Assembly (NCBI GenBank): GCA_958295905.1
Contig: OY282382.1
Coordinates: forward strand, 930,001-994,000
Direction of reading: 5' to 3'
DNA from: an uncultured Vicinamibacterales bacterium
GTDB lineage: Bacteria > Acidobacteriota > Vicinamibacteria > Vicinamibacterales > UBA8438
DNA: 64,000 nucleotides
Part shown: positions 10,150 to 48,507 of the stretch, one piece after another
Layout of the letters: each line of letters opens with the position of its first letter
Position numbering within the stretch: position 1 is the stretch's first letter
Translations under genes and position numbers: made by a program
The notes under the pieces: generated by a model
Seen by the model: the letters and a program-made list of their open reading frames with translations, nothing else
The model's database searches: none
What the model was told of the DNA's origin: nothing

Positions 10150-10423
10150 TCGGGTCAACGATCGCAGAGCGCGGATGTCCGGGCCTCCGTCCGGGGAGCC
10201 CGGTGGCAAGAGCCCCCGCGCATTCGACCGGCGCAGCCATCCCGCGTGGGTTGCGCCGCCCTACGGCCGGCGCCGCGTACGCCGACGGTGATGCTCCGCG
10301 GCCGCCCGCGCCCGGACCGGCGCCCCCGCGCCCTGCCGCGCGGGCCGCCGTGCCGCCCGCCGGCGCCTCGCTCCGGTTGGCGCACGCGGTTTCACCACGG
10401 GCTACCGGGCCCACCGCCAGGAG
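10150..10423. other. Intergenic DNA without recognisable features
   Basis: The 270-bp stretch between the FAD oxidase start and the first R1 repeat is GC-rich. I see no gene or hairpin worth naming. It must contain the oxidase promoter. Confidence 0.5.
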
Positions 10424-10653
10424 CATCCCACGCTGACTGCGCGTGACGGTCCGCCCGATTCAAGGGTCGCCACCGTCTTGCCGCCCGGCCGGCGCCGCGG
10501 GCACCACGCGCACGGCGGATGAGCCACGATCGGGGCGGTCGCCACCGTCTTGCCGCCCGGCCGGCGCCGCGGGAGACCCACGATTCCGCCCGGCTGGAAC
10601 CCCAGGACCCGCCACGATTCCGCCTGCGCCCGGCGGCGGCGGAGCGTGGGATG
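10424..10653 (+). repeat. R1 dispersed element, copy A (with internal duplication)
   Basis: It is bounded by CATCCCACGCT (10424-10434) and its inverted complement AGCGTGGGATG (10643-10653). It is longer than other copies because the block GTCGCCACCGTCTTGCCGCC occurs twice inside it (about 10468 and 10539). It is followed after about 22 bp by copy B. Confidence 0.85.
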
Positions 10654-10675
10654 ATCCCGGGCCCACCGCCAGGAG

Positions 10676-10834
10676 CATCCCACGCTGACTGCGCGTGACG
10701 GTCCGCCCGATTCAAGGGTCGCCACCGTCTTGCCGCCCCGGCCGGCGCCGCGGGAGACCCACGATTCCGCCCGGCTGGAGCCCCAGGACCCGCCACGATT
10801 CCGCCTGCGCCCGGCGGCGGCGGAGCGTGGGATG
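10676..10834 (+). repeat. R1 dispersed element, copy B
   Basis: It is a 159-bp unit bounded by CATCCCACGCT and AGCGTGGGATG, in direct tandem with copy A. The interior includes GAGACCCACGATTCCG and GCCACGATTCCGCC, shared with all copies. Confidence 0.9.
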
Positions 10835-10958
10835 GTCCCGGGCCGCCGCCCGACGGGCCGGATCGCGCTACGGGATCATGATAAAGTGGCTTGCTGGTTC
10901 CAAGACAGGCATCCTGGCACAAGGGGGGGCTACGACCCCATACGGAAAGGTATCTTCC

Positions 10959-16655: not shown

Positions 16656-18338
16656 ATGCATCCCCTCGACTGGATCATCATCGGCGGCTACCTCGTGTGG
16701 GTGGTGTACGACGGGCTGAAACGTGCCCGGGGAACCGACAAGGTCGAGGGGTACTTCCTCGCCGGCCGGTCGCTTCCGTGGTGGGCGGTCGGGTTGTCGG
16801 TCATGGCCACCCAGATGAGCGCGATCACCCTGGTCGGCACCACCGGGCAGGGCTACGCCGGCGGCCTGGGGCTGGTGCAGATGTACTTCGGCCTCCCCCT
16901 CGCGATGATCATCCTGTCGGTGACGCTGGTCCCGTTCCTCTACCGGGCCCGGGTGTTCACCGCCTACGAGTATCTGGAACGCCGGTTCGACCGGAAGACC
17001 CGGGCCCTGACGAGCCTGATTTTCCTCGTCTCGCGGGGGCTGGCGGTGGGGGTGATCATCTCCGCGCCGGCGGTCGTCCTCTCGGTGGTGCTCGGCTGGA
17101 ACCTGACCCTCACGGCCCTCGCCATCGGGGTTCCGACGACCTGCTACACGATGCTCGGCGGGGTGCAGGCCGTCGCGTGGGCCGACGTCAAGCAGATGGT
17201 CATCATCGTGGGCGGCCTGCTCGCGGTGGTCGCGGCCCTCGTCCTGGGGCTGCCGGGCGGGGTCGGCCTCGGCGACGCCATGCATCTGGCCGGCGCGGCC
17301 GGGCGGCTGACCGCCATCGACTTCACGCCGGATCTGAACCAGACCTACACGTTCTGGTCCGGTCTGTTCGGCGGCCTGTTCCTCATGCTCGGGTACTTCG
17401 GGTGCGATCAGAGCCAAGTGCAGCGTCATCTGACCGCCGACTCGGTCGACGCGGCCCGCCGGTCGTTGCTGATGAGCGCGTACTGGAAGATTCCGCTGCA
17501 GGCGCTGATCCTGCTGACCGGCGTGCTGGTGTTCGTGTTCCATCTGTTCCAGGCGCCGCCGATGCTCTTCAACCCCGTGCGGGACGCCGCCGCCCGCACC
17601 GGCGGCGGGGCGGCGGAGTACGCGGGGCTCGAGAGGGAGTTCGAGGAGGCGTTCGCGGCGCGCCGTACCGCGGCCGGCGAGATGGTCGCGGCCCGCCGGG
17701 GCGGGAGCGCCGGGGGCATCGCGGAAGCCCGGGCCGCGTTCGCGGCCAGCCAGCAACGGGTCGGGGCGGTGCGCGGGCGGGCGGCGGGGCTGGTGGAGGA
17801 GGCCACCGGCGAGGAGTACTCCGACGTCAACTACGTGTTTCCGACCTTCATCATCACGCATCTGCCGGTCGGGCTCGTGGGCCTGCTGATCGCGGCCATC
17901 TTCGCGGCGGCGATGTCGAGCGCCGCGGCCGAACTGGCCGCGCTGTCCACCACCAGCGTCATCGACTTCTACCGGCGGTACTTGAACCGCGGAGCGGCGG
18001 ACCGCCACTATCTGCGGGCGTCGAAGGTGGCGACGGCGCTGTGGGGGGTGGTGGCGACCGTCTTTGCGGTGTTCGCGGCCAACCTCGGATCGCTGATCGA
18101 GGTCGTCAATCAGGTCGGCTCCTATTTCTACGGGTCGCTGCTGGGGGTGTTCGTGCTGGCCCTCGGGTTTCGCCGGGCCACGGCCAACGGCGCCTTCCTG
18201 GGGCTGTTCGCGGGCATGGGGTCGGTCGCGCTGGTCGAGAGCGTCGCCGACGTGTCCTTCCTCTGGAACAACGTGGTCGGCACGGCCGCGGTCGTGCTCG
18301 TCGGACTCGCCGTGAGCTGGCTCCAGCCCGCCGACTGA
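16656..18338 (+). CDS. Sodium:solute symporter (SSS family)
   Basis: The 560-residue product has about thirteen helices with SSS signatures: IIIGGYLVWVVYDGLKRARG, then YFLAGRSLPWWAVGLSVMAT, QMSAITLVGTTGQGYAGG, FTAYEYLERRFDRKTRALTS, GGVQAVAWADVKQMVIIVGG and IFAAAMSSAAAELAALSTTS. It couples solute uptake to Na+. Substrate cannot be read from the sequence. An Ala/Arg/Glu-rich insert at about residues 305-390 between helices is probably a cytoplasmic coiled-coil loop and is unusual. ATG 16656 is chosen over the upstream in-frame ATG 16593 because it starts the first helix. Confidence 0.9.
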   Translation: MHPLDWIIIGGYLVWVVYDGLKRARGTDKVEGYFLAGRSLPWWAVGLSVMATQMSAITLVGTTGQGYAGGLGLVQMYFGLPLAMIILSVTLVPFLYRARVFTAYEYLERRFDRKTRALTSLIFLVSRGLAVGVIISAPAVVLSVVLGWNLTLTALAIGVPTTCYTMLGGVQAVAWADVKQMVIIVGGLLAVVAALVLGLPGGVGLGDAMHLAGAAGRLTAIDFTPDLNQTYTFWSGLFGGLFLMLGYFGCDQSQVQRHLTADSVDAARRSLLMSAYWKIPLQALILLTGVLVFVFHLFQAPPMLFNPVRDAAARTGGGAAEYAGLEREFEEAFAARRTAAGEMVAARRGGSAGGIAEARAAFAASQQRVGAVRGRAAGLVEEATGEEYSDVNYVFPTFIITHLPVGLVGLLIAAIFAAAMSSAAAELAALSTTSVIDFYRRYLNRGAADRHYLRASKVATALWGVVATVFAVFAANLGSLIEVVNQVGSYFYGSLLGVFVLALGFRRATANGAFLGLFAGMGSVALVESVADVSFLWNNVVGTAAVVLVGLAVSWLQPAD

Positions 18339-18349
18339 TGCGCCAGGAG

Positions 18350-18507
18350 CATCCCACGCTGACTGCGCGTGACGGCCCGCCCCCGATTCGAGGGGGCGCC
18401 ACCGTCTTGCCGACCAGTCGGCGCCGCGTGAGACCCACGATTCCGCACCTCCGGAGCTCCAGGACCGGCCACGATTCTGCCTGCGCACGACGGCGGAGCG
18501 TGGGATG
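18350..18507 (+). repeat. R1 dispersed element, copy C
   Basis: It is a 158-bp unit between CATCCCACGCT (18350-18360) and AGCGTGGGATG (18497-18507), starting 12 bp after the symporter stop. Confidence 0.9.
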
Positions 18508-18562
18508 GTCCTGACGGATGCGCGTACCGGCGTTGTCGGCCGGTCCCGCCCCGTGATATGTT

Positions 18563-18588: not shown

Positions 18589-18705
18589 CCGATCGGGCCG
18601 GCCGGCGCCCGCCGCGCCATTGCCGGCCGTGATCGACAGACCATCGGCGGGCGGCGGCCGATTCGGACCGGCGGGCCGCGCCGGCCATCTGTTCGTCACG
18701 TGCCG

Positions 18706-18806
18706 GGGGTCTGCGCCGTGGAACGGCGCCGCCCGGCGGCGGCGGCCGATTCACGGGCAGGGTTGGCGGGCGGCATCGGAGCCGCCGGACGGCGATTTTC
18801 CGGGGC
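18706..18806 (+). repeat. R2 dispersed hairpin element, copy 2
   Basis: It starts GTCTGCGCCGTGGAACGGCG, whose GCGCCG/CGGCGC arms form a hairpin, and passes through GGGTTGG and GGCATCGGAGCCGCC to GGCGATTTTCCGGGG. It is directly followed by copy 3 in the sufB leader. Confidence 0.75.
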
Positions 18807-18807
18807 A

Positions 18808-18891
18808 GGAGTCTGCGCCGTAGAGCGGCGCGGACTTCTGGAGGGTTGGGCGGCCATCGGAGCCGCAGGCGGCGATTTCCAGGCCAGGGAG
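18808..18891 (+). repeat. R2 dispersed hairpin element, copy 3
   Basis: It starts GTCTGCGCCGTAGAGCGGCG and includes GGAGGGTTGGGCGGCC, ATCGGAGCCGCAGG and GGCGATTTCCAGGC. It ends within a few bases of the sufB start codon and so supplies or abuts its ribosome-binding site (CCAGGGAGCGTC before ATG 18896). Confidence 0.75.
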
Positions 18892-25810: not shown

Positions 25811-25984
25811 ACAGAATCACCGGCAACCTCCTTGAAGGTCCTCCGGGCTCAGTATGGCCATCGGTTGCGATCGCCTGTCCGAGTTCCAGCCGGGGATCAG
25901 CAGGGGCAAGGCGCACGGGCGCATCGAGCAACGACCGTCGGCCGAGCCGCGGATGCGTCGGAGCGTGGGATTGTCCTGCAGGGG
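25811..25984. other. Intergenic DNA with a lone R1 end
   Basis: No gene is seen. GAGCGTGGGA at about 25961-25970 is an extra R1 terminal sequence that faces the start of R1 copy D, giving a GAGCGTGGGA...TCCCACGCT inverted pair across about 17 bp. Confidence 0.4.
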
Positions 25985-26144
25985 CATCCCACGCTGACGG
26001 CGCGTGACGGCTCGCCCCCGATTCGAGGAGTCGCCACCGTCTTGCCGACCGGCCGGCACCGCGTGAGACCCACGATTCCGTACGTCCGGAGCCCCAGGAC
26101 CGCGACGATTCTGCCTGCGCACGGTGGTGGCGGAGCGTGGGATG
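25985..26144 (+). repeat. R1 dispersed element, copy D
   Basis: It is a 160-bp unit between CATCCCACGCT (25985-25995) and AGCGTGGGATG (26134-26144). Confidence 0.9.
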
Positions 26145-26289
26145 GTCCTGGATTGTCCTGGGCCCCCGGTTGCGCCCCCTGCCGGGTTTGGGACAGAATG
26201 CCCCCTGGATCTGGAAAGTCGTCAGCTGCGGCAGGCGTATTCGACCCGGTTGCGCCGCAAGTCCGTTGCGGGTCCGTGCGCCTTGGCGG

Positions 26290-27890: not shown

Positions 27891-27925
27891 TCCGGCGACC
27901 CTGTTTTTAGTCGTGGCGATGCACT

Positions 27926-28022
27926 AGGCGTCTGCGCCGTAGAACGGCGCCGCTTCCCGCCAGGAGGCGCCGATCCCCTGGAGGGTTGGTTGGGCGGCAA
28001 TCGGAGGCCGCAGCGCGACCTT
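27926..28022 (+). repeat. R2 dispersed hairpin element, copy 6
   Basis: It is a full-length copy: AGGCGTCTGCGCCGTAGAAC, then GGCGCC repeats, GGAGGGTTGGTTGGGCGGCA and ATCGGAGGCCGCAGCG. GCGCCG-TAGAA-CGGCGC is a perfect hairpin here. Confidence 0.8.
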
Positions 28023-28035
28023 GACGGTCGTGTTC

Positions 28036-28236: not shown

Positions 28237-29214
28237 ATGTCCATGCCCCTGCGGGACCGCGTTCGCGTGTTCGCCCCCGCGACCCTGTCGAATCTCGGGC
28301 CCGGCTTCGACGTGCTCGGGCTGGCCATCGAGCAGCCGGGCGACTGCGTGGACGCGGAGTGGTCGGATCGGCCCGGGGTCGAGATCGCCGGCATGCGGGG
28401 GAACGCCGATCGACTGACGACGGATCCGACCCGGAACGTCGTCGGCATCGCCGCCGCGGCGGCTCTGCGCTTGGTCGACGCCCGCGCGCCGGGACAGCGG
28501 CCGTCCGGCGTGAAGTTGTGGCTGGACAAGCGGATGCCGCTCGCGAGCGGGCTCGGCAGCTCGGCCGCGAGCAGCGTCGCCGGGGCCCTCGCGGTGAGCG
28601 AGCTGCTCGGAGGAGCGCTCGGTCGGCGCGAGCTCATCGCGAGCGCGCTGGAAGGGGAGCGCGCGGTCTCGGGAGGCGTCCACGCCGACAACGTCGCGCC
28701 CTGCGTGACCGGCGGATTCGTCCTGATTCGAAGCTATGCTCCGATGGAGTTGCTGTCGCTGCCGGTGCCCGAGGCGTTGCGCGTCGCCGTCGTGCACCCC
28801 CACACCTCGGTGTCGACGGCCGAGGCGCGTCGCTTGGTGGCGGAGCGGCGCTTCGCGATCGCCGACGCCGTCGCCAACCTCGGCCAGCTCGGGGCGATGA
28901 TCACCGCCCTGCACCGCTCCGACCTCGAACTGCTCGGCCGATCGATCAGCGATGCCCTGGTCGAGCCCGTCCGCGCGCGGCTGGTGCCGGGGTTCGCGGA
29001 GGTCAAGCGGGCCGCCCTCGAGGCGGGCGCCCTCGGATGCTCGCTGTCGGGGTCCGGTCCGTCGGTCTTCGCGTTCGCCAAGTCCGACGATCAGGCCCGG
29101 GCTCTGGCCGCCCGCATGTCCGAGCGGTTCCGCGAGGCGGCCGGTCTCGAGTGCGACCGCTATGCCGGCGGGGTGAACGTGCGGGGCGCCTGCCGCGTGG
29201 ACGCCGGCGCGTGA
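28237..29214 (+). CDS. thrB: Homoserine kinase (GHMP family)
   Basis: The 325-residue product phosphorylates homoserine in threonine synthesis. It shows VRVFAPATLSNLGPGFDVLG at the N-terminus, the GHMP ATP loop PLASGLGSSAASSVAGALA, and the C-terminal GCSLSGSGPSVFAFAK. ATG 28237 (MSMPLRD) or 28243 may be the start. It stands apart from other thr genes and is followed closely by the nuclease gene, which is unrelated. Confidence 0.95.
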   Translation: MSMPLRDRVRVFAPATLSNLGPGFDVLGLAIEQPGDCVDAEWSDRPGVEIAGMRGNADRLTTDPTRNVVGIAAAAALRLVDARAPGQRPSGVKLWLDKRMPLASGLGSSAASSVAGALAVSELLGGALGRRELIASALEGERAVSGGVHADNVAPCVTGGFVLIRSYAPMELLSLPVPEALRVAVVHPHTSVSTAEARRLVAERRFAIADAVANLGQLGAMITALHRSDLELLGRSISDALVEPVRARLVPGFAEVKRAALEAGALGCSLSGSGPSVFAFAKSDDQARALAARMSERFREAAGLECDRYAGGVNVRGACRVDAGA

Positions 29215-29239: not shown

Positions 29240-32200
29240 GTGGGTGCGGTGACGCTTCATCGGTCCGCGAGCGCGGCGGCGCGCCTCGCCGCCGCGCACG
29301 GTTTCGTCGAGAGCCTGCCGCCGGGGTCCGAGGCGCTGATCGTCGGGGCCGCCCGGGACGCCGTCGACGATTTCGCGCGGGAGGGCGCGGTCCGCCGCGG
29401 CGCCACGTTCGGTCTCCACCGCTTCAGCCTCCGCCGGCTGGCCACCCGCATCGCGGCGCCGCGTATGGCCGGCCGCCGGTTGGCCCCCGCCACCCGGCTC
29501 GGGGCCGAAGCGGTCGCCGCCCGCGCCGCCTTCGAGGAGGTCGGTCGGGGCGGACTCGGGTATCTCGCGCCCATCGCCCAACTGCGCAGCTTCGGCCGGA
29601 CCCTGGCGTCGACCCTCGAGGATGTGCGCCTCGGCGGCGTCCAGACCGAAGATCTGTCGGCCTGCGGCGCGGTCGGGGCCGACCTCGACGCGCTGTCCCG
29701 GGAATACGCGCGCCAGCTTCGTCAGGCCCATCTCGTCGACATCTCCGAGCTGTATCGACTGGCGACGGGGGTGGTCGCGGCCCGCGAGCCGGTCGATGTG
29801 CCCCTCGAGGCTCCGGTGGTGCTGTTGGACGTGCCGGTTCACGACCGGGCCGCCCGCGGTTTCGTCGCGGCCCTCGCCGGGCGGTCCGGGCGGCTTCTCG
29901 CGACGGTTCCGCAGGGGGACGACCGGACGTGGGCGGCGCTCTCCCGGTTGCCGCATTCGGAGGCGGCGCCGCAGGGCGATCCGGCCGAGCCCGACACCCC
30001 GCTGGCCAGGGTCCGCACCCGGCTCTTCGAGCCGATCGCGCCGCCGGAGCGGGAGGCCGCCGGTCCCGCCGGCGGCGGGGTCTCGCTCTTCTCCGCGCCG
30101 GGGGAGTCGCGCGAGTGCGTGGAGATAGCCCGGTTGGTGCAAAAGGAAGCGGCCGCCGGCGTGCCGTTCGACCGGATGGCGGTGGTGCTGCGGTCGCCGC
30201 AGGTCTACAGCGGGTTGCTCGAGACCGCCCTGCGGCGGGCCGGCGTCGAGGCCTGGTTCGTCCGGGGGACCCGGGCGCCGGATCCGGCCGGCCGCGCGTT
30301 CCTCGCGCTGCTGGCGTGCGCGGCCGAGCGCCTGTCCGCACGGCGGTTCTCGGAGTACCTCTCCCTGGCGCAGGTGCCGCAACCCGATCCGGAAGGCGCG
30401 CCCCCCGCCCGCCGCGCGCGCTGGGTGCCTCCCGCCGAGGCCGACCAAGTGCTGCCGGGGCCCGCCCTGCCGGTGCAGGGGTCGTTGTTCGACGTTGCCG
30501 ATCTCGATCCGGATCACGACGGCCGTGACGCGGGGGATCCGCCCGACGCCGACGACCGGCCGGTCGTCGAGGGGGCGCTGCGCGCGCCCTGGCACTGGGA
30601 CCGGCTGCTCGTCGAGTCGGCGGTCATCGGCGGCCTCGACCGCTGGGTCCGCCGGTTGACGGGGCTCGAGCGGGAGCTTCGCCTGCGGTTCGACGAGTGC
30701 GCCGGCGACGATCCCCAGTCGCCGCAGGCGCGGCGGATCGAGCGCGACCTGATCGATCTCGGTCATCTGCGCCGGTTCGCGCTCCCGGTGATGGACCTGC
30801 TCGACGCGCTGCCGCGCGAGGCCCGCTGGGGAGACTGGCTCGACCGGTTCGAGACCCTGGCCCCGATGGTCCTGCGGCGGCCCGACCGGGTGCTGGCGAC
30901 CCTCGGCGAGCTGCGTCCCATGGCCGGCATCGGTCCCGTTCCCCTGACCGAGGTGCGGGACGTGCTGGCGGAGCGGCTCACGGAGCTGCAGGCGGAGCCG
31001 CCCCCCCGGCGCCATGGCCGGGTCTTCGTGGGCGGGCCGGATCACGTGCGGGGCCGCCTGTTCGACGTCGTGTTCGTGCCGGGACTGGCCGAGCGCATGT
31101 TCCCGCAGAAGCCCCGGCAGGACCCCATCCTCCTCGACGAGGCCCGCCGGCGCCTGAACGCGCCGGCCGCGTCCGGAAACCGTCGCCCTGCGGCTCCGCT
31201 TGCCGCCCCACCAACCCTGCCCGCGGGTCGGCGCTTCCCGCCGGAGGCGGCGCCGTTCCGCGGCGCGGATTCCCCGCCCCTGGGTCTGCCGGTGCTCGAC
31301 GATCGCGCGGCCGGGGAACGTCTGCTGCTGCGGCTGGCCGTCGGCGCCGCCGCCCGCCGGCTCCATCTGTCGTACCCGCGCCTCGAGCTCGGCGAGTCGC
31401 GCCCGCGGGTGCCTTCCTTCTATGCCCTTGATTTGGAACGCGCCCGCACCGGCCGGGTGCTGGACTTCCGGATCACCGAGCGCGAGGCGTTCGAGCGCGT
31501 GCAGTCGCGGCTGGCGTGGCCGGCCCCGAAGAAACCCGGCGACGCCATCGACGACACCGAGCACGATCTCGCCGTCCTGGGGCCGCTGCTGCGGCAACAG
31601 GGGGTGCCCGAGCCGACGGGGCGCGCGCGGTACCTCCTGGCCCTGGAGCCGGCCCTGCGCCGGTCGCTGCTGACCCGCTGGGCGCGCTGGACGACGCGGG
31701 CCTGGAGCCGGTTCGACGGCCTCTATCGGCCGGACGCGGGGGCGCGGGCCGCCCTCGACGCGCAGCGTCTGACGGCGCGGCCCTACTCGGTGACGGCGTT
31801 GCAGCGCTTTGCCGCCTGTCCGTACCAGTTCCTGCTGTCAGCCGTCTACCGCCTGCGGCCGCGGGAGGAGATCGCGCCGCCGGAGCGGCTCGATCCGCTG
31901 ACGCGCGGGCGGATGTTCCACGAGGCGCAGGCCGAGTTGGTGCGTCTGCTCGAAGCCCGCCGGCGGCTGCCGGTGACCCGGGACCGAGTTGCCGAGGCCT
32001 GGGCCCTCCTTGATGAGACCCTGGACGCGCTCGCCGCCCGCTACCACGAGGAGCTGGCCCCGGCCATCGACCGGGTGTGGACGGACGAGATCGAGAAGCT
32101 GCGCCTCGATCTGAAGGGCTGGCTGCAGCAGGTGGCGGACGAGGATGGCGGGTGGGTGCCGATTCGGGCCGAGCTCGGGTTCGGCTTGGCGCCGGGTGCG

Positions 32201-32707
32201 GGGCGCGACCCCCGGAGCACGGCCGACCCGGTGCTCGTCGACGGCGCCTGGAGGCTGCACGGCGTCGTCGATCTCGTCGAGGCGCGGGCCCGGCCGACGG
32301 CGGCCGGCGAGCTGCGGGTGACCGACCACAAGACGGGGCGGAACCGCACCGCGGATCGGATGGTGGTCGGGCACGGCGAGGTGTTGCAGCCGGTGCTGTA
32401 CGGGCTGGCCGTCGAGCAGGCGCTGGGGCGTCCGGTGCACGAGTCGCGACTCTTCTTCTCGACCCTGGCGGGGGGGTACGACGTTCGGTCGGTCCCCCTC
32501 GACGACACCGCGCGGCGATACGGCATCGAGGCGCTCTCGATCATCGATCGCGCCATCGAGGACGGCGTGATCCTGCCCGCGCCGCGCCGGGACGCCTGTG
32601 CCTGGTGCGACTACCGCGTGGTGTGCGGACCCTGGGAGGAGACCCGGGCGCGGCGCAAGGACGACACGAAGCTGGTCGATTTGCAAGCGTTGCGGAGATT
32701 GCCGTAG
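29240..32707 (+). CDS. addB: AddB-like helicase-nuclease subunit (inactivated helicase plus RecB-type nuclease)
   Basis: The 1155-residue product from GTG 29240 has an N-terminal UvrD-like region ([20 protein letters not shown]), a central part ([20 protein letters not shown]) and a C-terminal RecB-type nuclease with [10 protein letters not shown] (catalytic Lys) and an Fe-S cluster motif: CPYQFLLS near residue 855 and [10 protein letters not shown] at the end. It should work with AddA in processing double-strand breaks. Residues about 644-680 are encoded by an R2 repeat read in antisense, an in-frame insertion into a surface loop before [20 protein letters not shown]. Its stop is 19 bp before addA. 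Confidence 0.85.
31170..31275 (-). repeat. R2 element, copy 7, inserted in frame within the addB-like gene
   Basis: On the minus strand the segment carries CGCCGCGGAACGGCGCCGCC, GGGCAGGGTTGGTGGGGCGG and AAGCGGAGCCGCAGGGCGAC, matching R2. The reading frame of the host gene stays open across it, giving a Pro/Ala/Arg-rich stretch. Confidence 0.75.
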
Positions 32708-32726
32708 ACGGGCGGGCTCGCGAGTC

Positions 32727-35700
32727 ATGACCGAACCCGAGCTGGTCGACGCGGCGGCGCGGCGGCGCATCCGGTCCTCGCTCGACGAGAACCTCCTCGT
32801 CGAGGCGGCGGCCGGCACCGGGAAGACCTCGGAGCTGGTGACCCGGATCGTCAACGTGCTGGCGGCCGGGGTCGCGCAGGTCGACGGGATCCTGGCCGTG
32901 ACGTTCACCGAGAAGGCCGCCGGCGAGCTGAAGCTGCGCCTTCGGGAGGGGCTCGAGCGCGCGCGCCGCACGCCGCCTCCCGGCGGCGGCGCGGAGAGGG
33001 GCGCCGCCCGCCCCGCGAACGTCGAGCACGCCATCGCCCATCTCGAAGAGGCCCAGGTCAGCACCATCCACGGGTTCTGCGCGGACCTGCTGCGCGAGCG
33101 GCCGGTGGAGGCGGGGGTCGACCCCCGGTTCGAGGTGTTGGCGGACCCCGCGCCGGTCTTCGGACAGGCCTTCGACGCTTGGCTTCAGCAGACCCTGACG
33201 GATCCGCCGGAAGGGCTGCGGCGCGCGTTGAGCCGCCGGGCCGCGGGCGGCTTCGGCGGGCCGGGGGCCAAGGAGCGGCCTACCGAGCGGCTTCTCGCCG
33301 CGGCATCGAGCCTCGCCGAGTGGCGCGACTTCCAGGCTCCGTGGCGCCGCGAGCGGTTCGATCGGCCCGCGATCATCGATCGGATCGTCACCCACCTGAT
33401 CGATTTCGCCGAACTGGCGGAACGGGTCACGAACCGCGGCGACCGTCTGTATCTGGACCTGCGCCCGGCCGTGCTGCTGGCGCGCGAGATCCGGGGGCAG
33501 GATGCGCTGCGGCCGGCCCGCCGCGACCATGACGGCATCGAGGCGGCCCTGGTCGAACTGGCCGGGGTCCGCCAGTTCACCAATCCCCGGCGGGGATCGG
33601 GGGCCCGCTACGGCGAGGGCGTCGCGCGCGGGACGGTGATCGAGCAGCACGGCCGGATCGTGGACGTGCTGAAGGACTTCCGGCGGGTGGCCGATGCGGA
33701 CCTGGCCGCGCTCCTGCGGGACGAGCTGCAGGCGCCGATCGCCGCTTTCGGCACGCTGAAGCGGGACGCCGGCCGGCTCGACTTCGTCGACCTGCTCATC
33801 AGGGCGCGCAACCTGGTGCGCGACCACGACGCCGTCCGCGCCGACTTCCAGCGCCGGTTCACGCGCATCTTCGTCGACGAGTTCCAGGACACCGACCCCC
33901 TGCAGGCGGAGATCCTTCTGCTGCTGGCCGCCGGCGATCCGGCCGAGCGGGACTGGCTGCGGGTGTGGCCGGCGCCGGGGAAGCTCTTCATCGTCGGCGA
34001 TCCCAAGCAGTCGATCTACCGGTTCCGTCGAGCGGACGTCGGGGTGTACTGGCAGGTCAAGCGCCGGCTGGAAGCGGCCGGGGTGCCCGCCCTGGCCCTC
34101 ACCACCAGCTTCCGCGCCGTGCCCGGCATCCAGCGTCTCGTGAACCGGGCCTTCGCCCCGGTGATGTCCGGCTCCGGCCGCCCGGAGGGCGGGGCGGGTC
34201 CGCACCAGGCCGACTACGTGCCGCTGTCGCCGCATCGGGACGACCCGGAGCGGCAGCCCGGAGTCGTCGTGCTGCCCGTCCCCCGCCCGTACGGCCTGCG
34301 GCGGGTCGCGGCCTCCGCCATCGAGCGCTCGTTGCCGGACGCGGTCGGCGCGTTCGTCCGATGGCTCGTCGCCGAGAGCGGCTGGCGGGTGACGGAACGG
34401 CGGTCGTCCGGGGAGGAGGAGTCCGGCGATTCCGGGGCGGCGGGGGTCCCGGTGGCGGCGCGGCACGTCTGCATCCTGTTCCGGCGTTTCGAGAGCTTCG
34501 GCACCGATATGACCCGCCCCTACGTCGAGGCCCTCGAGGCCCGCGACCTGCCGCATCTGCTCGTGGGCGGCCGGGGGTTCCACGGCCGGGAAGAAGTGAC
34601 GACGATGCGCGCGGCCCTCGCTGCGGTGGAGTACCCGGACGACGAGCTCTCCGTGTTCGCCACCCTTCGAGGGTCGCTGTTCGCGGTCGAGGACGCCGCC
34701 CTGCTGGAGTATCACCAGCGGTTCGGCCGGCTGCATCCCTTCCGCGTTCCCCCCGCCCTCGCGGCCGGGGCCGGCGGCGACCCCGGCCTGCGGGAGCGGC
34801 TCGGTCCCATCGCCGAGGCGTTGGCGGTGCTGCGCGAAGCCCACCGGCGGCGGAACGTCGTGCCGGTCGCGGAGACCGTCGGCCGGCTGCTCGAGGCGAC
34901 CCGCGCCCACGCCGGATTCGTCCTGCGGCCGGGGGGGGAGCAGACCCTCGCCAACGTGCTGCTGATCGCCGATCTGGCGCGGCGTTACGAGTCGGGGGGA
35001 GGGCTCTCGTTCCGGAGGTTCGTCGAGCAGCTCGAGGACGAAGCGTTGGCCGGGCAGGCGGGGGAGGCGTCCATCTTGGAGGAGGGGAGCGACGGCGTGC
35101 GGATCATGACCGCGCATCGGGCCAAGGGGCTCGAGTTTCCGGTGGTGGTCCTCGCCGATCCGACGTGCCGGCTCCACCGGAAGACGGCGGGGCGCTTCAT
35201 CGACACCGCCCGCCGGCTGTGCGCGCTGCGGCTCGCCGGCTGGCCCCCCCTGGATCTCCTCGACCATGAGGACGTCGAGGTGGAGCGGGATCGCCAGGAA
35301 GGCATCCGGCTTGCCTACGTCGCCGCGACGCGGGCCCGCGATCTGCTGGTGGTGCCGGCGGTCGGCGACGGACCCTACGAGGGGGGATGGCTCGATCCGC
35401 TCAACGCGGCGATCTACCCCCCGGCGGCCGAGCGCCGCGACCCGGGGCCGGCCCCCGCCTGCCCCCGCTTCGGCCGCGACAGCGTGCTCGAGCGGCCGGA
35501 CGGCGATCCCGCCGGCCCCGACACCGTCGCTCCGGGCGGGTACCGGTTCGACGAGGACGGCGCCGGGGGCGCCGCCGTGGTGTCCTTTCCCGCCCCCGGC
35601 CCGCCGCCGGGGGCGTCCGCATCGCGGGACGGCGCCGGCGGGACGCCCGGGTACCAGGTCGTGTGGTGGGACCCCCAAGCGCTGGCGCTCGACATCGAGG

Positions 35701-36383
35701 CGCGGTTCGGCATCCGGCAGGCGGAGCTGCTGTCGAAGAACGTCCCGCAGGACATCGTCGATGGGGATCTCGACCGCTACCGCACCTGGCGGGCGCGGCG
35801 GGACCGGATCGTGGCGGAGGCGGCGGCGCCGAGCGTCGAGGTGGTCACCGTGACCGAGCTGGCCCGCCGCCAAATCGCGGACTTCGTGCCGGTGTCGATG
35901 GCCGAGCCCGAGTTGCTGGAGCTCGAACGCCGCGGCCGCCGCCCCGCCGGCCCCCGCTTCGGCGCCCTCGTGCACGCGGTGCTCGCGGCGGTTCCCCTGG
36001 ACGCCGGCCCGGACGGCATCGAGCAAATCGCCGCGCTGCAGGGCCGGCTGCTCGGGGCGGTCGAGCGCGAGGTCCACGCGGCGGCGGAAGCCGCGGCGGC
36101 GGGGCTCGCCCATCCTTTCTTCGATCGCGTTCGGCGCGCCGCGGCGGCGGGCGAATGCCGGCGCGAGGCGCCGGTGACGATGCGGGGCGATGACGGGGTG
36201 CTGGTCGAAGGCGTGGTCGACCTTGCGTTCCGCGACGGCGGCGTCTGGGTCGTGGTGGACTTCAAGACCGACCAGGAACTGGAATCGGCCCTCGACGTCT
36301 ATCGGCGTCAGGTGCAGTTGTACGCCGACATGGTGGCCCGGGCGACGGGCAGCCCGGCGCGGGCGGTGCTCATGCGGGTGTGA
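32727..36383 (+). CDS. addA: AddA-like UvrD/REP helicase with C-terminal nuclease domain
   Basis: The 1218-residue product has the SF1A helicase motifs in order: [18 protein letters not shown] (Walker A, about residue 30), [48 protein letters not shown] (Walker B), [55 protein letters not shown] and [16 protein letters not shown]. At the C-terminus [11 protein letters not shown] and [23 protein letters not shown] form the RecB-type nuclease. It is the motor and one nuclease of an AddAB-type break-processing complex. Start ATG 32727 overlaps nothing; addB is 19 bp upstream. Confidence 0.92.
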
Positions 36384-36451
36384 GGGCGCCGCGTCACCCC
36401 GCGGTCCGCGCCGGATTCGGGTCTGCGGGCGGCCGGGCGCCGGGTCAGGAC

Positions 36452-36612
36452 CATCCCACGCTTCGCCACCGCCGTGCGCAGGCGGAATCGTGGCGGGTCC
36501 TGGGCCTCCGGAGGTGCGGAATCGTGGGTCTCACGCGGCGCCGGCCGGTCGGCAAGATGGTGGCGGCCCCTCGAATCGGGGGCGGGCCGTCACGCGCAGT
36601 CAGCGTGGGATG
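36452..36612 (-). repeat. R1 dispersed element, copy E (inverted)
   Basis: It is a 161-bp unit with the same terminal CATCCCACGCT/AGCGTGGGATG, but the interior is the reverse complement of copies A-D. It begins 68 bp after the addA stop. Confidence 0.9.
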
Positions 36613-36638
36613 CCCCTGGGCGCCGGGTCCGGCACCGT

Positions 36639-36836: not shown

Positions 36837-37745
36837 GTGGGCAGGAAACGACGCACGAAGCACGGACCGGCGCGGGGACGCGCTCCCGAGCCGGCCGTCC
36901 CGGCGCGGTCATCGCGGGTTTGGGTCGCGGCGGCGGTGTTGCTGGCCCTCGGCGTCGGCGTCCTCTTGTGGCGCTCGCCGCCGGCGTCGCAGGCGTCCCC
37001 CGGCGAGCCCGCCGCCGAGGCATCGGCGCCGGCCGCCGCCGCGCCGGCGCCGGACGTCCGCCTGCGGCGCGTCGAGGTGCTGCGGGAGCTCCCGCACGAG
37101 CGGGACGCCTATACGCAGGGGCTGGTGTGGTGGAACGGCGTACTCTTCGAGAGCACCGGCCGGGAGGGCGAATCCACCCTGCGCCGGCTCGACCCGCGGA
37201 CGGGCCGGGTCGAGCAGCGCATCGACATCCCTGCGCAGTACTTCGGCGAGGGGCTGAGCCTCGTCGACCGGCGGCTGATCATGCTGACGTGGCGGGCGCA
37301 GCGCGCGTTCACCTACGACCGCGACTCGTTCGAGCTGCTCGACACGTTCCGCTACCAGGGCGAAGGCTGGGGCCTCTGCCACGACGGCGGCCGGCTGATC
37401 ATGAGCGACGGCTCCGACCGGCTGACCTTCCGCGACCCGGTCACCTTCGCGCCGATCGGCGGGCAGCGGGTCCGGCTTCGCGGACAGCCGCTGCACGAGC
37501 TGAACGAGCTCGAGTGCGTCGACGGGGCGGTGTACGCCAACGTCTGGCAGACCGACTTCATCGTCCGCATCGATCCCGAGAGCGGCCGGGTCACCGACCG
37601 CATCGATGCTGCGGGGCTGCTGCGGGGCCCCGACCTCCTCGGGGCCGAGGTGCTCAACGGCATCGCCTACGACCCCGACGCCGACACCTTCTACATCACC
37701 GGCAAATGGTGGCCGAAGATGTTCGAGGTGCGCTTCGTCGAGTGA
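36837..37745 (+). CDS. Glutaminyl-peptide cyclotransferase-like protein (Glu_cyclase_2), membrane anchored
   Basis: The 302-residue product has one N-terminal helix (VWVAAAVLLALGVGVLLWRS), an Ala/Pro linker and a five-bladed beta-propeller of plant/bacterial glutaminyl cyclase type: ERDAYTQGLVWWNGVLFEST, FGEGLSLVDRRLIMLTWRAQ, GEGWGLCHDGGRLIMSDGSD, NELECVDGAVYANVWQTDFI, and LNGIAYDPDADTFYITGKWW. It would form N-terminal pyroglutamate on exported proteins. GTG 36837 is chosen for GGAGG 6 nt upstream. Confidence 0.9.
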   Translation: MGRKRRTKHGPARGRAPEPAVPARSSRVWVAAAVLLALGVGVLLWRSPPASQASPGEPAAEASAPAAAAPAPDVRLRRVEVLRELPHERDAYTQGLVWWNGVLFESTGREGESTLRRLDPRTGRVEQRIDIPAQYFGEGLSLVDRRLIMLTWRAQRAFTYDRDSFELLDTFRYQGEGWGLCHDGGRLIMSDGSDRLTFRDPVTFAPIGGQRVRLRGQPLHELNELECVDGAVYANVWQTDFIVRIDPESGRVTDRIDAAGLLRGPDLLGAEVLNGIAYDPDADTFYITGKWWPKMFEVRFVE

Positions 37746-37768
37746 GGGGGCGACCGCGCGGGGCCGGG

Positions 37769-37884
37769 CGTCTCCGCGGTAGAACGGCGCCGCCCCGCGC
37801 AAGGCGGCGCCGGCTCTCCGGAGGGCCGGTCGGCGGCAATCGGCGCCTCGGCCGCGGCGGTTTCCGGGTCGGGAGCCTCGTGGC
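37769..37884 (+). repeat. R2 dispersed hairpin element, copy 8
   Basis: GGCGTCTCCGCGGTAGAACG leads into GGCGGCGCC blocks, GGAGGGCCGGTCGGCGGCAA and GCGGCGGTTTCCGGGTCGGG. It is more diverged than copy 6. Confidence 0.65.
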
Positions 37885-48245: not shown

Positions 48246-48313
48246 GGCTTACGGCGTGCAATCGTCGACGAATCACAGCACCGCACACCCGAACGTTTAG
48301 TCATGGCGCAGCA

Positions 48314-48396
48314 CTACGGCTCCGATCGCCGCTCAACTAACCCTCCGGGGAGTCGGGCCTCCGGGGGGAAGCGGCGCCGTTCTACGGCGCAGACTC
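48314..48396 (-). repeat. R2 dispersed hairpin element, copy 9 (inverted)
   Basis: On the minus strand it reads GTCTGCGCCGTAGAACGGCG, then GGAGGCCCGACTCCCCGGAG, GGTTAGTTGAGCGGCGATCG and GAGCCG. The hairpin at its start is perfect. Confidence 0.7.
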
Positions 48397-48507
48397 CTGG
48401 CGACGGCCGTCGCCTTCTCGGCGATTTCCGCCGTGAACGTCTCCTCCGCTCCGTCTCCCGACCGTGGAGTCAGCCGGTCCAACCGGACGCCGAAGCCGCG
48501 GCCGAGC

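Follow-up and report, generated by a model that had tools for sequence, protein, structure and literature searches.

A two-hairpin repeat, mostly intergenic elsewhere, lies in frame within an addB-like gene of an uncultured acidobacterium

Results

The addB locus and its repeat

The window is the whole stretch of 64,000 nt analysed here, from an uncultured Vicinamibacterales bacterium (contig OY282382.1 of assembly GCA_958295905.1, whose three contigs total 6.3 Mb). It contains a gene encoding an AddB-like subunit and, directly 3' of it, the ORF of an addA-like partner (Table 1). Translation of addB was predicted to start at 29240, or at 29249 by coding score. PF12705 was detected in its product with an E value of 4e-31, and the profile match to Bacillus subtilis AddB (3u44_B) had an E value of 2e-11. 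In addition, the predicted fold matched 3u4q_B, 3u44_B and 4cei_B with Z scores of 28-29 over 880-926 aligned residues, at an rmsd of about 18 A (domain positions differ). The iron-sulphur cluster cysteines C860, C1120, C1123 and C1129 were invariant in 19 homologues. The addA-like product scored 216 bits against the TIGR02785 AddA model, which is below the family cut-off.

Table 1. Genes and R2 copies of the window discussed in the text
Feature	Coordinates	Strand	Remarks
R2 copy, followed by short-form copy 18805-18887	18703..18808	-	terminal four bases common to both
R2 copy, intergenic	27924..28031	-	upstream of kinase-like gene 28243-29214
addB-like gene (PD-(D/E)XK nuclease / inactivated UvrD-like helicase subunit)	29240..32707	+	1155 aa; PF12705, AddB profile, fold
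R2 long-form copy in addB	31168..31276	+	nhmmer, covariance model, consensus alignment, pLDDT
addA-like helicase-nuclease gene, partner of addB	32598..36383	+	PF00580, PF13361, PF12705; called start 32727
R2 copy, intergenic	37764..37872	-	downstream of gene 36936-37745
R2 copy, intergenic	48289..48400	+	

R2 is a two-hairpin repeat that occurs in a long form of 107 nt and a short form of 87 nt, the long form carrying an extra GGCGCCTCC...GGAGGC hairpin. Both forms have a degenerate CTAG, C-[TC]-[AG]-G, at either end. Adjoining tandem copies have these four bases in common, so that repeat periods are near 83 and 103 nt. When R2 was examined for the terminal inverted repeats and target-site duplication of a MITE, the motif at the two ends was an exact duplicate in copies L002, L004 and L016 and not in copies L003, L006 and L012. 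Assignment of R2 to a known RNA family was rejected, as no Rfam 15 match above the gathering score was found anywhere in the window. A second dispersed repeat (10405-10860, 18331-18520, 25966-26151 and 36426-36619), which comprises families D1-D3 and D5 plus inverted pairs I1-I5, is unlike R2 in sequence and has its own GCATCCCACGCTGAC motif.

The addB gene stays open throughout a long-form R2 copy, which is read in frame as AddB residues about 643-678 (G000:C1:961168-961276 in contig coordinates, by the covariance-model match). This copy was detected by nhmmer in a search of 2 Mb (E 8e-18, 65 bits) over model positions 4-104 of 107, an end-to-end family match. The covariance model covered positions 1-107 with 82.7 bits (E 4e-14), and blastn aligned the copy to the window copy at 27931-28019 with 74/90 identities. 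The first-pass annotation, which had placed an inverted R2 copy in frame at 31170-31275 of the AddB-like protein, was thus confirmed, with slightly wider bounds: the copy lies on the plus strand, as does that at 48289-48400, whereas those at 18703-18808, 27924-28031 and 37764-37872 are inverted relative to it. Relative to the consensus, two 1-nt insertions bring it to 109 nt, or 105 nt net, and both terminal TAG triplets are altered. Extra bases of these kinds were also present in a few other R2 copies.

Absence of the insert from AddB homologues

The insert was present in none of 53 aligned AddB homologues, including those of R2-carrying genomes. When the 200 residues around the site were searched in 28 genomes of the family, both flanks were found in most genomes having addB, and the insert was found in none but the source genome, where the only other match of its residues was another R2 copy. 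R2 models also gave no match in 82 loci of other genomes that had been retrieved through AddB searches. These loci include the AddB of R2-bearing G003, G010, G012, G017, G018, G022, G023 and G026, and they cover genera g2 and g9, whose genomes hold dozens of R2 copies; thus, absence of the insert is not due to absence of R2. The named homologues were mostly labelled Acidobacteria. The congeneric assemblies G001 and G002 had no AddB match (the addA contig of G002 begins within addA), so the empty site is known from other genera only. Alignment of AddB homologues without the insert, which had been proposed as a check of the insertion, came out in its favor for these other genera. No homologue from an R2-free genome with the same residues, the finding that would speak against an insertion, turned up among the 53 homologues or the 28 genomes.

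The distance from the FPQ motif to LLLRLA is 240 nt in this gene and 138-171 nt in seven family homologues, implying a gain of about 105 nt, or 35 codons; removal of the insert leaves 135 nt. The first-pass annotation had put the gain at about 36 Pro/Ala/Arg-rich residues.

A disordered, length-variable loop

In the AlphaFold model of AddB, pLDDT fell below 50 precisely at residues 643-678, between a helix ending near residue 640 and a helix starting at residue 686, predicting disorder of the insert. The two sides of the site are linked by about ten residues in B. subtilis AddB, and other family members carry unrelated stretches of 0-28 residues in this length-variable loop. One homologue of the same order (L024) carries an unrelated linker of its own there, about 28 residues long, which shows that the loop accepts long additions. 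AddB with the insert probably still works.

The first-pass annotation had described the insert as a natural domestication of a non-coding repeat, a view that codon usage does not favor. The insert had a codon-pair score of -7.2; equal-length windows of genes averaged 15.9 (sd 7.1), and 0.4% of them scored as low. Differences from the R2 consensus were distributed 8:7:4 over the three codon positions, with no excess at the third. Since its codon usage is not gene-like, the insert fits toleration rather than visible domestication, and a function is still compatible with the data. Under adaptive domestication, the R2-derived loop would have been selected and would be active in AddB, e.g., by contacting AddA, DNA or a regulator. 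Such a history would agree with a frame that is open across the whole gene, with conserved residues intact on both flanks, and with a copy that lacks both terminal TAG stops and has a net length divisible by three. However, an open frame is equally expected if selection acts only on the rest of AddB, and the codon usage, the even spread of changes and the predicted disorder of a loop where relatives hold unrelated residues make adaptive domestication improbable.

Distribution of R2 in the genome

The census of R2 elements (E <= 1e-3) covered 2.45 Mb including the window, or 39% of the genome, with genes called by a codon-pair model that used addA and addB as seeds. Among 233 elements, 203 were intergenic, 29 overlapped gene ends and one, the addB copy, was internal to a gene. 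The coding share of the surveyed DNA was about 81%, and random placement would be expected to yield well over 150 internal copies. The search for other protein-internal copies that had been suggested earlier was therefore negative in this part of the genome. R2 density was about 95 elements per Mb, which extrapolates to roughly 600 per genome.

R2 was antisense to the gene in 20 of 21 overlaps at 3' ends. The overlap lengths suggest that the stop codon is usually the TAG in an R2 hairpin loop, in which case R2 would add a few residues to the C-terminus. About 20 genes seem to end within R2, including those at G000:C1:794268-794345 and 176799-176882. We also considered R2 as a common splitter of genes. 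Ten pairs, drawn from 20 R2 copies hugged by genes on the same strand, were tested with Pfam; no family was common to both sides, which gives no indication that gene splitting by R2 is common. Where both members of a pair had a match, they were plausible complete genes belonging to different families (HemA/CcsA-like, MutL/methyltransferase, YidC/R3H and LeuS/LptE).

It had been proposed that R2 insertions can leave frames intact, given a length close to a multiple of three. The statement about length holds for a minority of copies: 49 of the 134 complete ones had a net length divisible by three, which is close to the third expected by chance and shows no design of R2 for frame neutrality. The modal net lengths were 83, 84 and 103 nt, and the long consensus, 107 nt or 103 nt with the shared four bases counted once, is not a multiple of three by either count. 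The broader proposal, judged by these lengths and by the single internal copy, was not upheld. If R2 were a frame-compatible, protein-invading element like the Rickettsia palindromic elements (RPE), addB would be one of many cases. One copy does lie in frame inside a gene, and on each strand of the long consensus one frame in three has no stop at all; however, the modal lengths, a share of frame-compatible copies at the chance level and one internal element in 233 stand against nearly half of first-reported RPE copies located inside genes (PMC10969869). From the 39% of the genome surveyed, we regard frequent protein invasion by R2 as very improbable.

Among relatives, R2 was present in G001-G003, G010, G012, G014, G015, G017, G018, G020, G022, G023 and G026, which represent several genera, with a single match each in G014 and G015. 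It was not found in g8 (G009, G016, G021, G025 and G027) or g5.

Orientation and structure of R2

R2 often occupied spacers between adjacent genes on the same strand. Between genes of the same direction, R2 was oriented opposite to the genes in 122 cases and along them in 17 (p 9e-21), at a median position 47 nt past the upstream stop codon. This bias suggests a role of R2 in messenger RNA. The RNAalifold structure used in the covariance model missed a better two-hairpin structure, which was tested separately. On the gene-sense strand, this structure was kept in 92.4% of cells, and cells changed on both sides numbered 27, compared with 10.2 (sd 2.5) in shuffles and 3-7 in slid versions, although related copies inflate such counts. 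An excess of G-U over A-C cells (63 vs 23) is the pattern expected under selection on gene-sense RNA; counted pair by pair, it was 12 to 7 and not significant. The addB copy is in the minority orientation, and the R2 segment of the addB mRNA is therefore complementary to the usual R2 RNA. These observations suggest that R2 has a role at the level of mRNA elsewhere but not in addB.

Discussion

The addB insert is very probably an R2 copy captured in frame in a variable loop, a rare and tolerated event. R2 copies, of 87 or 107 nt, are dispersed and normally intercistronic and can form two hairpins; in the scenario that we favor, one long-form copy inserted in addB. The insertion point would be the loop that separates one helix from the motif-VI-like helix in the helicase-like domain, a place where the length of homologues varies freely. 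By chance, the net insert of about 105 nt is divisible by three and contains no stop in the addB frame, leaving AddB with a loop of about 35 Pro/Ala/Arg-rich residues that is predicted to be disordered. The two extra bases presumably make the length a multiple of three, and their gain before insertion looks the same in the sequence as their gain afterwards. Elsewhere, selection may have removed insertions in genes, or insertion itself may avoid them. The probability that the stretch is instead an ordinary lineage-specific linker, GC-rich and R2-like by chance, is negligible: although the site is variable by nature and L024 has an unrelated linker of similar general size there, the profile score excludes chance resemblance, the match covers the whole element and begins and ends where the extra residues do.

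In-frame capture of repeats came as a surprise in Rickettsia, and few clean examples are available elsewhere. Here the capture can be counted, and one internal copy in 233 shows that persistence is rare and occurs in a disordered, length-tolerant loop. The census thus corrects a tempting generalization from a single case and gives no evidence that R2 makes proteins. The part that deserves more work is the R2 family itself, with its orientation bias and paired structure. Tentatively, and with somewhat less than even confidence, we propose that R2 is an undescribed structured intercistronic RNA family of one acidobacterial family that may act in gene-sense mRNA, with two hairpins flanking a G-rich linker, GGAGGGUUGGUUGGG, a possible two-layer G-quadruplex. 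The addB copy, RNA-silent in its opposite orientation, would then be a by-product surviving as a protein loop.

Short repeats located in frame within genes have been documented for RPE, ERIC and the 107-bp Correia element (PMC2229807, PMC10969869), and R2 shares features with several known systems. Like R2, RPE are short, hairpin-forming dispersed repeats (105-146 bp) with a copy in frame within a conserved housekeeping gene, and the inserted residues are likely tolerated, as was demonstrated for the gmk product of Rickettsia (PMC2229807). Unlike R2, RPE are very often inside genes and have conserved open frames; their hallmark, frequent in-frame location in unrelated genes, is not seen in R2, and sequence and phylum also differ. 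ERIC (127-bp form) and the Correia element are similar to R2 in size and are mostly intergenic with some in-frame fusions (PMC2229807), but they have terminal inverted repeats, TA ends and target duplications, whereas R2 ends are a degenerate C-Y-R-G common to adjacent copies.

The Caulobacter CcrM-associated intergenic repeats (CIR) resemble R2 in having about 100 bp, two stem-loops joined by a linker and intergenic locations. GANTC is enriched in R2 (12.7 vs 3.0 per kb); however, it lies at the loop in CIR and in the stem of hairpin 1 in R2, is absent from 71 of the 233 R2 copies, and CIR are not known to lie in genes. REP/BIME share with R2 many intergenic hairpin copies, tandem arrays and preference for the 3' side of genes, but REP occur with RAYT transposases, and R2 is 87-107 nt long with two hairpins. 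A REP/RAYT origin of R2 was rejected because the Y1/RAYT transposase PF01797 is missing from its own genome and most R2-bearing relatives (among them G001-G003, G010, G012 and G017), and PF01797 is present in several relatives that lack R2. Across relatives, presence of R2 does not track these transposases. R2 thus falls outside the RPE, REP/RAYT and CIR families, for each of which a diagnostic trait was looked for in R2 and not found. No acidobacterial counterpart was found in the open papers searched, which is weak evidence of novelty. The capture itself works like the RPE, ERIC and Correia cases, and is a new instance of such events in Acidobacteriota.
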